A DNA stretch of 54,360 nt from Gammaproteobacteria bacterium. Lineage in GTDB: Bacteria; Pseudomonadota; Gammaproteobacteria; SZUA-229. Under the pieces are notes generated by a model. The model was not told the origin of the DNA and made no database searches. It saw only the letters and a program-made list of their open reading frames with translations. Position 1 is the stretch's first letter. Every line of letters begins with the position of its first letter. The stretch is from NCBI GenBank assembly GCA_030595325.1, contig JAUVDN010000005.1:1-54360 (forward strand). Direction: 5' to 3'. A program made the translations under genes and the position numbers. Shown piece by piece: positions 46,461-52,939 of this stretch.

Positions 46461-47177
46461 TTATTGTTGAACGGTTCTTCTGATTAAGCCTATAAATACC
46501 AGTCCTAAACTTAGCAGGGCCAGAATATTTGGCTCCGGCACATATTCAACATCGTGAGAATACGGGGCGAAACTATTTACTTGAATATCATCTATTGATG
46601 AGGTCATAAGGTCCCACTCACCGCCTGCAACGGTAAATAAATCAAAATGCAGACCGTCAACATCACCAAATAATTCGATGTCACTTATAGAAAACATCTG
46701 TGTATAACCTTTGCCAGTACCTGTCTCACCAGGCTGTACGTCATCTATATCACCAACGATTCCATCAAATTGAAATTCGTAAACTTCATAGTAGGTGTCA
46801 TAAATATTGTGAGGGGCAAGGCTGTTAGTGTCTTCCAGAGGTGGGTTGCCGTAGCCAGAAGTAAAATATGTCGCGCCATCAATAGTGATATTGAACGCGT
46901 CAGATGTAGTATCAGGAGAAGGAACGGCTGCTACAACGAGGTAAGCAAATAAACTGTCAGAATCCCAGGCATAAGAGCCATTACCACCGTCTTCTGAAGT
47001 AGCATTGGCATATGCGTATAGGTCAAAGTTCGGGGATGAGACGTCCCAGGTTTCAGTGGCGTTGTTATAGTACCAGTCATCAGAACCATCGCCAGCAAGT
47101 TGCAACGACGGTATTGCCAGAACAGCAGAACTGAATGTGGCAAGTAATGTTAGTAATAAAGCATTTAAGGTTTTCAC
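46461..47177 (-). CDS. PEP-CTERM sorting-domain surface protein
   Basis: 238 residues with a GTG start and GGAG 8 bp upstream. A Sec signal peptide (about 1-21) is followed by an acidic, Tyr/Asp/Gly-rich beta domain without cysteine. The C-terminal sorting signal is VPEP, then a hydrophobic helix (LALLSLGLVFIGLI) and RR. Such proteins are processed by an exosortase (XrtA/EpsH type), usually along with exopolysaccharide export; no exosortase is in this window. The middle domain is not recognised. A sigma-54 promoter precedes it. Confidence 0.9.
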   Translation of the reverse strand: MKTLNALLLTLLATFSSAVLAIPSLQLAGDGSDDWYYNNATETWDVSSPNFDLYAYANATSEDGGNGSYAWDSDSLFAYLVVAAVPSPDTTSDAFNITIDGATYFTSGYGNPPLEDTNSLAPHNIYDTYYEVYEFQFDGIVGDIDDVQPGETGTGKGYTQMFSISDIELFGDVDGLHFDLFTVAGGEWDLMTSSIDDIQVNSFAPYSHDVEYVPEPNILALLSLGLVFIGLIRRTVQQ

Positions 47178-47216
47178 TTCTATATCTCCAGAGACAATAT
47201 TCTATATATATAAGAT

Positions 47217-47232
47217 AGCAACATTCGTGCCA
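47217..47232 (-). promoter_or_regulatory. Sigma-54 promoter of the PEP-CTERM gene
   Basis: Minus strand reads TGGCACGAATGTTGCT, an exact match to the -24/-12 consensus TGGCACG-N4-TTGCW with the obligatory 10 bp between GG and GC. The start site would fall near 47205, about 28 bp before the GTG start codon. RpoN-dependent expression of PEP-CTERM genes with the PrsK/PrsR system is known in exosortase bacteria. Confidence 0.85.
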
Positions 47233-47348: not shown

Positions 47349-47429
47349 TGTAAATTTTTTTGACAAAAAATGTAAGTTTTTATGCAAATTGCCATGATAA
47401 GGGGGCTTTAGGTGTAAATATAATTTACA
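47349..47429. promoter_or_regulatory. Candidate activator binding sites upstream of the sigma-54 promoter
   Basis: Palindrome TGTAAATATAATTTACA (47413-47429) and a weaker copy TGTAAATTTTTTTGACA (47349-47365) have centres 64 bp apart, about six helical turns. They lie about 137 and 201 bp upstream of the -12 element, typical for NtrC-family enhancers. TGTAAA-N5-TTTACA resembles the TyrR box (N6), whose HTH is of the same Fis type. Binding protein inferred, perhaps PrsR. Confidence 0.45.
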
Positions 47430-47651: not shown

Positions 47652-48629
47652 TTAAATGGTCTGGTAATAAAGATTCTGTGGATGATTTGCCTGGGCAAAG
47701 AAAAACCAACGCTCAGCAATTAAACCAACATATTGAACGACGAACGCCAGAGCAAATAATATAAACATATTGTTTGCTAAACCACCGGAAAGTAGAGCGA
47801 CTGGCACAGCAAAGACCAGCACTAAAAATATCCATTTAATGCTTTTGAAAAAAGCAGGCTTTGCGCCGTGGAAGTACTCACGGGTATTGAATGAACCGCC
47901 CATAGAGCCCTGTGCTTTTTGTTGTATCTTGGTGTGTCGGATACCAATAGCCGAACTCAGGTTTGATTTGTATTTGATGTTGTTATTTCTTATCAGTGAT
48001 GCGCATCGGGTTATAAAAGCAGTAACCGTTAGTACGATGGCCCAGCCGCCGTAAAAATTAATTAAGTCTGAATTAACATAAGCGGCAAAAGCCGTGCTCA
48101 ACGCAAAACCTGAAGCCATTCCTAATAAAGTGTAATTGACGACGGTTAAGGGTGTTGCCCATTCCTGCAAAAATTTAATGCAAGCATAGATCATCGCGGT
48201 ACAGATAAATAAAGAAAAAGCTAATACGGTATTTATTGCACCGACTAATAAAGACAAATCGACAATGAAATCTTCACTCAGTGAAAACAGTACCGGGTTC
48301 CAACCGTTTATGTGAATCATGGCATAGATAAAAGTCATGCCCATGAAAGATGGCAACACAATAACTTCCCGCGATAACCAGGAGGTTTTCCATTTAGCAG
48401 CAGAACGCCAGGCGCGTTCAGGATGGCCGAGATGGAAAAAAGAAGCGATTAATCCGGTAACTAAAAATACTAGCGCTAACAAACTGCCGTAACCATAAAA
48501 ACCGGGAGAATCCTGCACCGGTAAAACTTTTATAACGGAATACAGCTGGCCGGTGTACAGGGCTAAAAATAAACCCTGACCAACACCGATTAATGTGGTT
48601 AAAAAAATTACTGAAAAAGCAGGATGCAT
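47652..48629 (-). CDS. soeC: SoeC-like membrane anchor (DmsC/NrfD family)
   Basis: 325-residue integral membrane protein with about eight hydrophobic helices. It starts MHPAFSVIFLTTLIGVGQGLFLALY and contains FFHLGHPERAWRSAAKWKTSWLSREV, the conserved DmsC-family block. It would anchor SoeAB to the cytoplasmic side of the inner membrane and pass electrons to quinone. 56 bp downstream of soeB. The family call is firm; the Soe assignment rests on the whole operon. Confidence 0.87.
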   Translation of the reverse strand: MHPAFSVIFLTTLIGVGQGLFLALYTGQLYSVIKVLPVQDSPGFYGYGSLLALVFLVTGLIASFFHLGHPERAWRSAAKWKTSWLSREVIVLPSFMGMTFIYAMIHINGWNPVLFSLSEDFIVDLSLLVGAINTVLAFSLFICTAMIYACIKFLQEWATPLTVVNYTLLGMASGFALSTAFAAYVNSDLINFYGGWAIVLTVTAFITRCASLIRNNNIKYKSNLSSAIGIRHTKIQQKAQGSMGGSFNTREYFHGAKPAFFKSIKWIFLVLVFAVPVALLSGGLANNMFILFALAFVVQYVGLIAERWFFFAQANHPQNLYYQTI

Positions 48630-48685
48630 ATATGTTATCTCTATTTAATTCTAGCGCTTAGTTCTTTGGCTCGACAGTCAACAAC

Positions 48686-49417
48686 TTACCAGCTCATGAT
48701 ATCGTCAAGTGTCTGTTCGTCTTCGCCCGGTCCCGGTAACTGACGTTCTTTATTAAGCGGGTTGTCGACACGGGTAAGCTCATCATGATGGATGGTAATA
48801 TTTGTTTTACGACGTGGCAGATAATGGTTGGCGGGTTTAGTGCCCCACTCCGGCATCAACTGGTAGCCGCCATTGTCACGAATCTGTTCTGAAACAATTG
48901 ACTCTGGATCATTTACATCACCAAATAAGCGCGCACTTGTTGGACAGGCTAAAACACATGCCGGTTTGCGCTCTGCTTCAGGTAAGGTTTCATCGTAGAT
49001 GCGATCAACACATAAGGTGCATTTTTTCATTACCTTCTGATTTTCATCAATCTCGCGCGCACCGTAAGGGCATGCCCACGAGCAATATTTACAACCAATA
49101 CATTTATCGTAATCAACTAAAACAATACCGTCTTCTTCACGTTTGTAACTGGCCCCCGTTGGGCAGACAGGAACACAAGGCGGCTCTTCACAATGTAAAC
49201 AGCTTTTTGGAAAGTGAACGGTTTGTGTGTTGGGGTATTCGCCAACCTCGAATGTCTGTACGCGGTTAAAAAATGTTCCGGTTGGATCTTTATCATACGG
49301 ATTGTAGTCAGACATGAAACCTGCGGTGCCTGAAGTATTCCACTCCTTGCAGCTGGTAACACAGGCGTGACAACCAACGCATACGTTTAAATCGATAACT
49401 AAAGCGAGTTGCTTCAT
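48686..49417 (-). CDS. soeB: SoeB-like four-cluster iron-sulfur subunit
   Basis: 243 residues with four cysteine groups for [4Fe-4S] clusters: CVGCHACVTSC (13-23), CLHCEEPPCVPVCP, CIGCKYCSWACP and CTLC...PACVLACP. This is the DmsB/PsrB-type electron-transfer subunit. No signal peptide, in keeping with a cytoplasmic complex. Between soeA (15-bp gap) and soeC. Confidence 0.9.
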   Translation of the reverse strand: MKQLALVIDLNVCVGCHACVTSCKEWNTSGTAGFMSDYNPYDKDPTGTFFNRVQTFEVGEYPNTQTVHFPKSCLHCEEPPCVPVCPTGASYKREEDGIVLVDYDKCIGCKYCSWACPYGAREIDENQKVMKKCTLCVDRIYDETLPEAERKPACVLACPTSARLFGDVNDPESIVSEQIRDNGGYQLMPEWGTKPANHYLPRRKTNITIHHDELTRVDNPLNKERQLPGPGEDEQTLDDIMSW

Positions 49418-49432
49418 AATTTTTCTTATGCC

Positions 49433-52354
49433 TTACTTATTGGTACGTGTGCCGGCAAAATATTTTAACCAGCGGCCATTCATAAATTTATTGCGAGCAG
49501 ACGTGCCCGGTGTTTTTGCGCCCATCTTAAACTGTGGGAAAGTTTCTTCGGGCTCGCCCTCTTCTGCAGGATAAATTTTTACCCGCACATCGTACCAACC
49601 GGCTTGTCCGGTAATAGGGTCAGAGTTAGATAAGTGGTCACCTGCATCACTGGCGGGTAATTCTTCACTAATCAAATGATTCAATAAGAAACCTTTCTGT
49701 GATTCGTTGGCGTTTTTCTTTAGGCCCCAGGTGCCGCGTGCTTTACCGATTGCGTTCCAGGTCCAGACGGTTCCTGGTTCAACCGCTTCAGAATGACGAC
49801 ACATGCAACGTACTTTGCCGTGCATAGATTCTACCCACATCCATTGACCATCAGCGATACCGGCGGCTTCAGCAGTTTTGGTATTTACGTTTAAATAGTT
49901 ATGAGTATGAATCTGACGTAACCAGGCATTTTGTGAATCCCAGGAATGGTACATAGCCATTGGACGTTGGGTGATTGCGTTTAACGGGAACTGACGTAGA
50001 TCGGTTTGCTGTGCTTCCAATGTGTCGGAATAAAACGGCAGTGGATCAAAATGTGTATTGATACGATCGCGAAGGTGATCAGGTGGTTGCTTGCCGTCTG
50101 ACTTTCCTTGCGCGGCTAGACGGAACTTTTGTAACACTTCACTATATATATGTATATTTATTGGTTCCGCATAACGCGTCAGGCTGTGACGTTTTGCCCA
50201 TTCCAGATAACCCTGATTCCAGTTCCGCATGTACTGATAAGATTTAGGCAGCTCATGTTGGTAGACACAATTGTTCTTTTCGTACATCTCCCACTGATTA
50301 GGGTTGGGCTCCCCTTTCATGAATTTTTCACCGCCCTTGCCACGCCAGCCAGCAAGAAAACCGATGCCAGAACCCGGTGCGGTTTCGTAGTTGATGACGA
50401 AGTCAGGGTAGTCGCGGAATTTACGCTCTCCCTGCTCGTTTACAAATGCGGGCAGTTTTAAACGCGACCCCAATTCGATTAATACTTCCTGGAATGGTTT
50501 GCATTCACCCGTTGGTTCAACAACAGGAATACGAACGGAATCGACCGGGCCCTCAAATTCAGAGATAGGTCGGTCTAACATCGACATAACATCGTGACGC
50601 TCCAGATACGTTGTATCGGGTAACACCAAATCAGCAAAGGCGACCATCTCAGATTGGAAGGCATCGCAGACAATAAGGAAAGGAATTTTGTATTCACCCT
50701 TCTCGTCTTTATCGTTGAGCATGTCACGAACACTGGTGGTGTTCATGGTTGAGTTCCACGCCATGTTAGACATGAAAATCATCATGGTATCGATGGGATA
50801 CGGATCGCCGCGCCAGGCATTGGTGATGGCGTTTTGCATTAAACCGTGAACAGATAACGGGTGTTCCCATGAAAAAGCTTTATCTAAGCGTATCGGTTGA
50901 CCGTCATCATCAACAAATAAATCATCAGGATCCGCTGGCCAGCCTAACGGCATACCATTTAGTGGTGTATTGGGTTGTATGTCATCCCAGCCAGTTGGTG
51001 TTTTGGCGCACGGTGGAATCGGCCTTGGAAATGGTGCTTTATGGCGGAAACCACCAGGACGGTCGATGGTACCTAAGATACTCATCAAAATAGACATCGC
51101 ACGGATGGTCTGGAAGCCATTGGAATGTGCTGCCAGGCCACGCATTGCATGGAACGATACCGGGTTGCCTGTTATATGATCGTGTTCATTGCCCCAGGTG
51201 TCTGTCCATGCGATGGGTAATTCAATTTTTTCATCACGCGCGGTAATACCCATCTCATAAGCAAGGCGCTTGATAGTTTCGGCTGGAATGCCGGTAATTT
51301 CTGATGCCCACTCCGGCGTGTAATCTTTAACGCGGTCGACCAGTAACTGAAAAGCGGGTTTTACTGGGGTGCCATCATCAAGCTTAAACTCACCTAACAG
51401 GTATGGGTCTGAGCCATTAGTGTGCATAGAGATGGGTTTATTTAGCTCACGGTCCCACCACAATTTATTCTGCGAATCAAAGCAGCCTTCTTCTTTTGGT
51501 ACTTCAAAACGTACAAACATACCGTTTTCGGTCGAATTTTCATCCATGTTTACCAGCTCGGCAGAGTTAGTATAATTAATTAGAAAATCACGGTCAAATA
51601 GGCCTTGCTTGATGATTTCATTAATAATGGACAAGAATAAAGCGCCATCAGTTCCTGGTTTAATCGGCACCCACTCATCGGCAATGCCCGCATAACCGCT
51701 GCGTACCGGGTTGATGGCGATAAACTTGCCACCCTTGCGCTTGAAGTCTGCCAGAGCGATTTTCATCGGATTGGAATGGTGATCCTCAGCAGTACCAATC
51801 ATAATGAACAGCTTGGAACGCTCGAGATCCGGGCCGCCAAACTCCCAGAAAGAGCCGCCGATGGTGTAGATCATGCCGGCAGCCATATTTACTGAGCATA
51901 AACCACCGTGAGCTGCGTAATTGGGTGTGCCGTACTGCTTGGAAAACAGACCAGTAAGCGCCTGCATCTGGTCACGACCAGTGAATAGTGCAAACTTTTT
52001 CGGGTCAGTTGCTCGAATGTGAGCAAGACGTTCCTCCATGATGGAAAAAGCTTTTTCCCAGGAAATTTCTACGAAGTCATTGTCGCCACGATTGCTATTG
52101 GGCTTACGCATTAATGGTTTAGTCAAACGAGCCGGTGAGTACTGCTTCATGATTCCGGAAGCACCTTTGGCACAGATAACACCCTTGTTTAACGGGTGAT
52201 CGGGATTGCCCTGAATATAACGAATTTCACCATCACGCAAAGTAACGCGGATACCACAACGACAGGCACACATATAACAGGTTGTGTTTTTGGTCTCTAA
52301 ACGGCTGTTTTCATCAGTTGCCTTAGACGTCGGGTTATGTACCGGCTGAGACAT
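49433..52354 (-). CDS. soeA: SoeA-like molybdopterin catalytic subunit (cytoplasmic sulfite dehydrogenase)
   Basis: 973-residue member of the DMSO reductase (Mo-bis-MGD) superfamily. The N-terminal [4Fe-4S] site has Cys26, Cys29, Cys33 and Cys61 (CYMCACRCG...VICAKG). Cys153 in HGGLCSVNMAAG is the likely Mo ligand. Pterin-binding segments include GGKFIAINPVRSG and the C-terminal dinucleotide domain (about 830-973). There is no twin-arginine signal, which distinguishes SoeA from exported Psr/Phs/Ttr relatives. SoeABC oxidises sulfite to sulfate in the cytoplasm and donates electrons to quinone. No sulfur genes adjoin to confirm it; polysulfide or thiosulfate reductase activity cannot be fully excluded. 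Confidence 0.85.
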   Translation of the reverse strand: MSQPVHNPTSKATDENSRLETKNTTCYMCACRCGIRVTLRDGEIRYIQGNPDHPLNKGVICAKGASGIMKQYSPARLTKPLMRKPNSNRGDNDFVEISWEKAFSIMEERLAHIRATDPKKFALFTGRDQMQALTGLFSKQYGTPNYAAHGGLCSVNMAAGMIYTIGGSFWEFGGPDLERSKLFIMIGTAEDHHSNPMKIALADFKRKGGKFIAINPVRSGYAGIADEWVPIKPGTDGALFLSIINEIIKQGLFDRDFLINYTNSAELVNMDENSTENGMFVRFEVPKEEGCFDSQNKLWWDRELNKPISMHTNGSDPYLLGEFKLDDGTPVKPAFQLLVDRVKDYTPEWASEITGIPAETIKRLAYEMGITARDEKIELPIAWTDTWGNEHDHITGNPVSFHAMRGLAAHSNGFQTIRAMSILMSILGTIDRPGGFRHKAPFPRPIPPCAKTPTGWDDIQPNTPLNGMPLGWPADPDDLFVDDDGQPIRLDKAFSWEHPLSVHGLMQNAITNAWRGDPYPIDTMMIFMSNMAWNSTMNTTSVRDMLNDKDEKGEYKIPFLIVCDAFQSEMVAFADLVLPDTTYLERHDVMSMLDRPISEFEGPVDSVRIPVVEPTGECKPFQEVLIELGSRLKLPAFVNEQGERKFRDYPDFVINYETAPGSGIGFLAGWRGKGGEKFMKGEPNPNQWEMYEKNNCVYQHELPKSYQYMRNWNQGYLEWAKRHSLTRYAEPINIHIYSEVLQKFRLAAQGKSDGKQPPDHLRDRINTHFDPLPFYSDTLEAQQTDLRQFPLNAITQRPMAMYHSWDSQNAWLRQIHTHNYLNVNTKTAEAAGIADGQWMWVESMHGKVRCMCRHSEAVEPGTVWTWNAIGKARGTWGLKKNANESQKGFLLNHLISEELPASDAGDHLSNSDPITGQAGWYDVRVKIYPAEEGEPEETFPQFKMGAKTPGTSARNKFMNGRWLKYFAGTRTNK

Positions 52355-52939
52355 AGTTTTTATCCTTAAATCAATGGATGTGGTTAAGCGGTATGAATAT
52401 CAAAGGTTTACTGTACGCCAAGCCATACGCTTTGGCTAATAAGCATTCTTAAAGCAGTCATAAAATATTACTACATTCTAATATAAAAATATTTTATGGG
52501 CGTTCATGCTCACTGTAAACAAAGCGATACACCTGTAAGTCATTTGGGATATATTAGTTTTTTGCATCTTTTAATTGAAAATTTAGCTTTATTATCAACG
52601 TGTTACATGGAAGTGCGAATCAGGCTTTTTCAGGCTGTGCGTAATAAAAGTAGCTATAATTTTTTGTGTTTTGTCGGGTTTGTTAACACTATATTGATGA
52701 AAAATTTGAAATAAGCACTGAAAGTGTATGATTTTCTTTACATATTAGAAAATTAGAAACTATTTAAATAAAAATATCTTATTGATAGTTATTAGAATTA
52801 ATATAATGGTACGGTTTTTGCTAGACATGATAAATATTGAGAGATTTTCATTTTAGGGACGAAAATAATCATTTTGTCTCTGAATTATTAAATGAAATCA
52901 TTTTTCATTTAAAAACTATAAATGTATAGGGAAGCAAAA
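52355..52939. other. Divergent intergenic region between soeA and the TSP3 lipoprotein gene
   Basis: 585 bp with no supported gene. It contains an inverted repeat GCCAA-N10-TTGGC (52417-52436), 63-82 bp before the soeA ATG, a possible operator. A sigma-54 promoter lies at 52807-52822. In the leader of the lipoprotein there are two hairpins: GGGACGAAA pairing with TTTTGTCTC (about 52856-52883), and AAATGAA/TTCATTT (about 52890-52912). The 72-codon plus frame at 52496 is not convincing. Confidence 0.5.
52807..52822 (+). promoter_or_regulatory. Sigma-54 promoter of the TSP3 lipoprotein gene
   Basis: TGGTACGGTTTTTGCT matches TGGCACG-N4-TTGCW at every fixed position except C to T at one site. The spacing of GG to GC is the required 10 bp. 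The predicted start near 52834 leaves a leader of about 105 nt with two small hairpins before the ATG at 52940. Confidence 0.75.

Follow-up and report, generated by a model that had tools for sequence, protein, structure and literature searches.

A predicted sigma-54 promoter of the PEP-CTERM-box type upstream of a choice-of-anchor N protein gene in an uncultured gammaproteobacterium

A PEP-CTERM gene and the DNA in front of it

The window, i.e., the whole 54,360-nt stretch of DNA analysed here, contains a gene for a PEP-CTERM protein, flanked by a DMSO-reductase-like operon on one side and purU on the other; in the host assembly, no EPS locus is linked to it. The gene forms a unit of its own, and the intergenic gap of 474 nt upstream of it carries both of the motifs discussed below (Table 1). 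Of its neighbours, the operon (47652-52354, minus strand) encodes molybdopterin, FeS and anchor proteins, and its alpha subunit scores far below every NCBIfam equivalog cut-off.

The product has the signal peptide, C-terminal PEP motif, transmembrane stretch and basic tail that define this protein class. The first-pass annotation had already called it a PEP-CTERM protein, and profile searches bear this out: TIGR02595 (PEP-CTERM) matches with 18.7 bits (cut-off 16) and NF038141 (choice-of-anchor N) with 90.8 bits (cut-off 40) over the full profile length, while Pfam PF07589, at 20.3, stays slightly below its cut-off of 20.7. A structure model of low confidence (mean pLDDT 61) shows the expected succession of N-terminal helix, beta-rich middle and C-terminal helix, and a fold search with it gave no match at E <= 0.001. 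Probably, this is a cell-surface (biofilm-matrix) protein.

Table 1. Features of the PEP-CTERM gene and its upstream region
Feature	Position	Strand	Basis or remark
Choice-of-anchor N / PEP-CTERM protein, 238 aa, GTG start	46461..47177	minus	
PEP-CTERM sorting signal VPEP...LALLSLGLVFIGLIRR, residues 213-234	46476..46541	minus	
Choice-of-anchor N domain, residues 21-211	46545..47117	minus	profile match; beta-rich in low-confidence model
N-terminal signal peptide, residues 1-21, predicted cleavage after ...VLA	47115..47177	minus	by eye; model helix 2-16
GGAG, probable ribosome-binding site	47186..47189	minus	direct reading
Predicted transcription start (+1)	47206	minus	from GC placed at -13/-12
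Sigma-54 promoter element TGGCACGAATGTTGCT (-24/-12), motif 2 of the PEP-CTERM box	47217..47232	minus	conserved in orthologues
Activator-binding motif 1, proximal copy TGTCAAAAAAATTTACA	47349..47365	minus	predicted; 116 nt to promoter element; matches PMC1569441 motif
Motif 1, second copy TGTAAATTATATTTACA, near-palindrome	47413..47429	minus	predicted; 180 nt to promoter element

The promoter element, read 5' to 3' from 47232 to 47217, has the 10-nt distance between GG and GC that is typical of -24/-12 promoters, and presents the TGGCAC-N5-TTGC core with a gene downstream. It had been proposed in the first-pass annotation as TGGCACG-N4-TTGCT on the minus strand, fitting the -24/-12 consensus and lying about 40 bp before the GTG; sequence, strand and coordinates are exact, and the gap to the start codon measures 39 nt. 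The start of transcription suggested there, about 47205, is close to the one predicted here from the position of the GC.

How much weight can such a site bear? Loose sigma-54 matches (up to two mismatches) number 8 in the window against 8.6 expected from shuffles, so that a loose match alone carries no meaning. The stricter pattern TGGCAY-N5-TTGCW occurs only once in the whole window, at this element; when the 474-nt intergenic stretch was resampled 20,000 times under a Markov-1 model, it appeared in 0.055% of the cases. For the exact form TGGCACGN4TTGCW there is a single match in the window and a total of four in the 2.3-Mb assembly (reversed-pattern control, 0); of the three that lie elsewhere, one or more fall within coding sequence.

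The upstream half of this arrangement had escaped the first-pass annotation. It consists of two 17-nt copies of TGT(C/A)A-N6-TTTACA, which occurs nowhere else in the window. None of the 20,000 Markov-1 resampled sequences contained two copies; the pattern was worded after the orthologues had been viewed, but its key features (17 nt, 3' TTTACA, sometimes repeated) had been published beforehand (PMC1569441). Within the ~201 kb of host genome examined, motif 1 and motif 2 co-occur only upstream of the PEP-CTERM gene, and the sole other motif 1 match lies within coding sequence.

This combination of motif 1 and a sigma-54 motif 2 was described for this protein class as the "PEP-CTERM box" (Haft et al. 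2006, PMC1569441). In that description, motif 1 is 17 nt long, ends in TTTACA and is sometimes repeated; the spacer between the motifs averages 62.8 nt (range 32-92), motif 2 lies 23-221 nt from the start codon, and the phylogenetic profile makes the motif PrsR-specific. The window gene agrees in its motif 1, present twice, in the sigma-54 motif 2 downstream of it, in being a single-gene unit behind a long intergenic region, and in its distance to the start codon. However, its spacer of 116 nt exceeds the published range, and all four orthologues deviate alike (116, 128, 117 and 116 nt). Other boxes in the family have spacers of 62-85 nt; as the search behind them was restricted to 55-85 nt, the contrast with 116-128 nt is partly built in. 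The published range being descriptive, the long spacer is treated here as a variant of the box. A spacer of 116-128 nt requires no new mechanism, since distances of 80-160 nt are common for sigma-54 activators. A practical point is that the activator site can sit ~120 nt from the promoter, and genes of this kind escape any box search restricted to 32-92 nt.

The same architecture in relatives

Orthologues with 50-53% identity occur in three genomes of the family (G044, G030 and G043). Each has TGGCAY-N5-TTGCW upstream and TGTCA-N6-TTTACA farther up, and when the four orthologous upstream regions are aligned the longest invariant runs are TGTCA..A....TTTACA and TGGCA...A..TTGC. A more distant homologue from Methylobacter has two motif 1 copies plus TGGCATTACCTTTGC, and no box precedes a homologue from Paucibacter (28% identity).

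The surroundings of these orthologues are informative. In G043 the gene is divergent from prsK, which is followed by prsR, xrtA and prsT (717.9, 692.7, 238.7 and 624.9 bits, respectively), with epsB2 and a chain-length gene in the same cluster; all score above their NCBIfam cut-offs. In G030 it is likewise divergent from prsK-prsR, at which point the contig ends, and in G044 it is located elsewhere in the genome than the PrsK and exosortase genes. PrsK, PrsR and an exosortase are present in all three genomes. The window gene shares its two motifs with these orthologues, but differs in its position and in that an XrtA/PrsK/PrsR/PrsT locus is not in the host assembly.

Across 54 family genomes, the combined pattern of motif 1 and motif 2 (spacer 55-85) gave 12 matches in 9 genomes (reversed control, 0), mostly upstream of PEP-CTERM or VPLPA-CTERM genes. 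A search of 17 further genomes of the genus did not turn up the window gene, which counts against the preferred explanation. Among named relatives, a single-protein query gave no match and an alignment query found 6.

In two relatives, an extra motif 1 copy, TGTCACTATTATTTACA, occurs on the prsK side of the intergenic region (L123, ~8100; L124, ~3250), and might reflect PrsR feedback on prsK-prsR. A possible orphan box is seen in G028 (L083; 95% complete), upstream of a VPVPA-type gene in a genome where PrsK above threshold and an exosortase were not found.

With regard to known systems, the statement in the first-pass annotation that RpoN with PrsK/PrsR controls PEP-CTERM genes in some exosortase bacteria agrees with the literature (Haft 2006, PMC1569441; PMC9850573; PMC9012009). 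In Aquincola tertiaricarbonis, pepA is RpoN-dependent, with a mapped transcript start and a TGGCAC -24 element (PMC9850573); for Zoogloea resiniphila, PMC9012009 reports that PrsK-PrsR and RpoN are needed. The window gene resembles these pepA genes in the TGGCAC -24 element, the upstream enhancer-like motif and the PEP-CTERM product, but its ectodomain is choice-of-anchor N, not PepA, and its control is predicted from sequence. Given the published control in both organisms, it belongs to an already known system, and is a further example of one published in 2006 and supported experimentally since. It widens the range of matrix proteins under RpoN/PrsK-PrsR control to include the choice-of-anchor N group and an uncultured family of gammaproteobacteria.

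The predicted partner genes and the host assembly

The host assembly is a MAG of 2.3 Mb, 82.8% complete. From the promoter, an exosortase, PrsK and PrsR had been predicted elsewhere in the genome, and absence of rpoN had been named as the finding that would overturn the proposal. Searches of this 82.8%-complete assembly returned no exosortase, no PrsK above cut-off, no true PrsR, no XrtA-type EpsB and no rpoN, and direct protein queries with PrsT and XrtA gave no match. The proposed RpoN/PrsR-type control is nevertheless well supported by sequence comparison (motif 1 twice, a conserved architecture, orthologues beside prsK-prsR), while the genes that it predicted were not found in this assembly.

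Three candidates came close and were rejected. The enhancer-binding protein of C92 has TIGR02915 as its best match, at 335.7 bits against a PrsR cut-off of 502.6, in a locus with GspE/GspF-like, secretin-like and other pilus or secretion-type proteins (ORFs read by eye). The C107 kinase matches PrsK with 82.8 bits in its C-terminal part only, and such sub-cut-off matches also occur in 13 of 14 control genomes. The EpsB-like protein of C100, considered as a remnant of an XrtA locus, is of the WcaJ type (TIGR03023, 470.5, over cut-off; TIGR03013 below cut-off).

For rpoN, the family gives a clear frame: the gene is present in 50 of 54 genomes, and in all 22 of the good ones. In a congeneric genome it is flanked by KdsC, HPF, PtsN and RapZ, and since the same protein query found none of kdsC, hpf, ptsN and rapZ in the host assembly, the whole locus is missing from it. 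Moreover, the assembly encodes five sigma-54 activators, which need rpoN. On this genomic evidence, the missing rpoN is very probably an assembly gap.

The case of the XrtA/Prs locus is less simple. Exosortase occurs in 25 and PrsK in 26 of the 54 family genomes, i.e., in only about half, so that a real absence from the host is conceivable; the conserved box, in turn, argues for their presence. A gap is favoured here too, and the host genes would lie in the unassembled part of the genome.

The assembly, although exosortase-negative, encodes at least three VPVPA/VPLPA-type (TIGR03370-like) proteins (L035 on C85, 5917-6568; L036 on C80; L037 on C88). The usual partner of VPLPA signals is XrtD rather than XrtA. 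Among these PEP/VPLPA-CTERM genes, the one on C85 has TGGCATGCATCATGCT at -68 without motif 1, and those on C80 and C88 have no convincing box.

Control of the gene and alternative readings

The gene is, with good probability, controlled by a PEP-CTERM box of Haft's type, via sigma-54 and a PrsR-type activator. In this mechanism, sigma-54 RNA polymerase would wait at TGGCACGAATGTTGCT while PrsK phosphorylates the activator, which would bind one or both TGT(C/A)A-N6-TTTACA sites, 116 and 180 nt upstream, loop over and open the promoter. Transcription would begin near 47206 and yield the exported protein, whose C-terminal PEP signal exosortase A would cut, delivering it to the exopolysaccharide matrix.

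Could the promoter depend on sigma-54 in a host that has truly lost XrtA, PrsK and PrsR, the gene being a recent relic or driven by another enhancer-binding protein? This is unlikely, despite the three negative XrtA/Prs searches and the distance of the gene from any EPS locus. Five other sigma-54 activators are at hand (the NtrC-like C93, the PAS-type C98 or C37, the orphan C7 and the C92 protein of the pilus locus), and G028 suggests that boxes can outlive the system, or that the locus can be missed. Against loss stand the PrsR-specificity of the motif in Haft's profile (PMC1569441), the intactness of both motif islands, which would soon decay in a relic, and the PrsK- and exosortase-positive genomes of all three close orthologues; the missing kdsC...rpoN-hpf-ptsN-rapZ locus, moreover, indicates that gaps of such size occur. 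The narrower version, in which the three genes are lost and the intact long-spacer box is now driven by another enhancer-binding protein, is improbable; if true, it would mean that a PEP-CTERM regulon operates in a host that lacks the matching exosortase system. Least credible, and very improbable, is that a sigma-70-type promoter transcribes the gene and the TGGCAC-N5-TTGC sequence is inert: loose matches are indeed as frequent as in shuffled sequence, but the exact site is unique in the window, orthologues and an outgroup keep it together with a second motif, and no sigma-70-like promoter was found upstream of the gene on the minus strand.

Control by sigma-54 and a PrsR-type activator thus remains the preferred reading of this gene, and other sigma-54-related features of the genome may be recorded beside it. 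Another exact TGGCACG-N4-TTGCT (L040 on C79, 7383-7368, minus strand) lies upstream of a gene for a MauG-like di-heme protein, a second candidate sigma-54 unit. In the window, TGGTACGGTTTTTGCT (52807-52822, plus strand), with one mismatch, is found past the molybdopterin oxidoreductase operon, 99 nt before a long ORF that encodes a probable lipoprotein. L039 (C37) and L042 (C98) encode two PAS-type sigma-54 activators that resemble each other and lack a receiver domain, and the gene of the former is divergent from one for a small exported protein with TGGTATGTTTGTTGC upstream.
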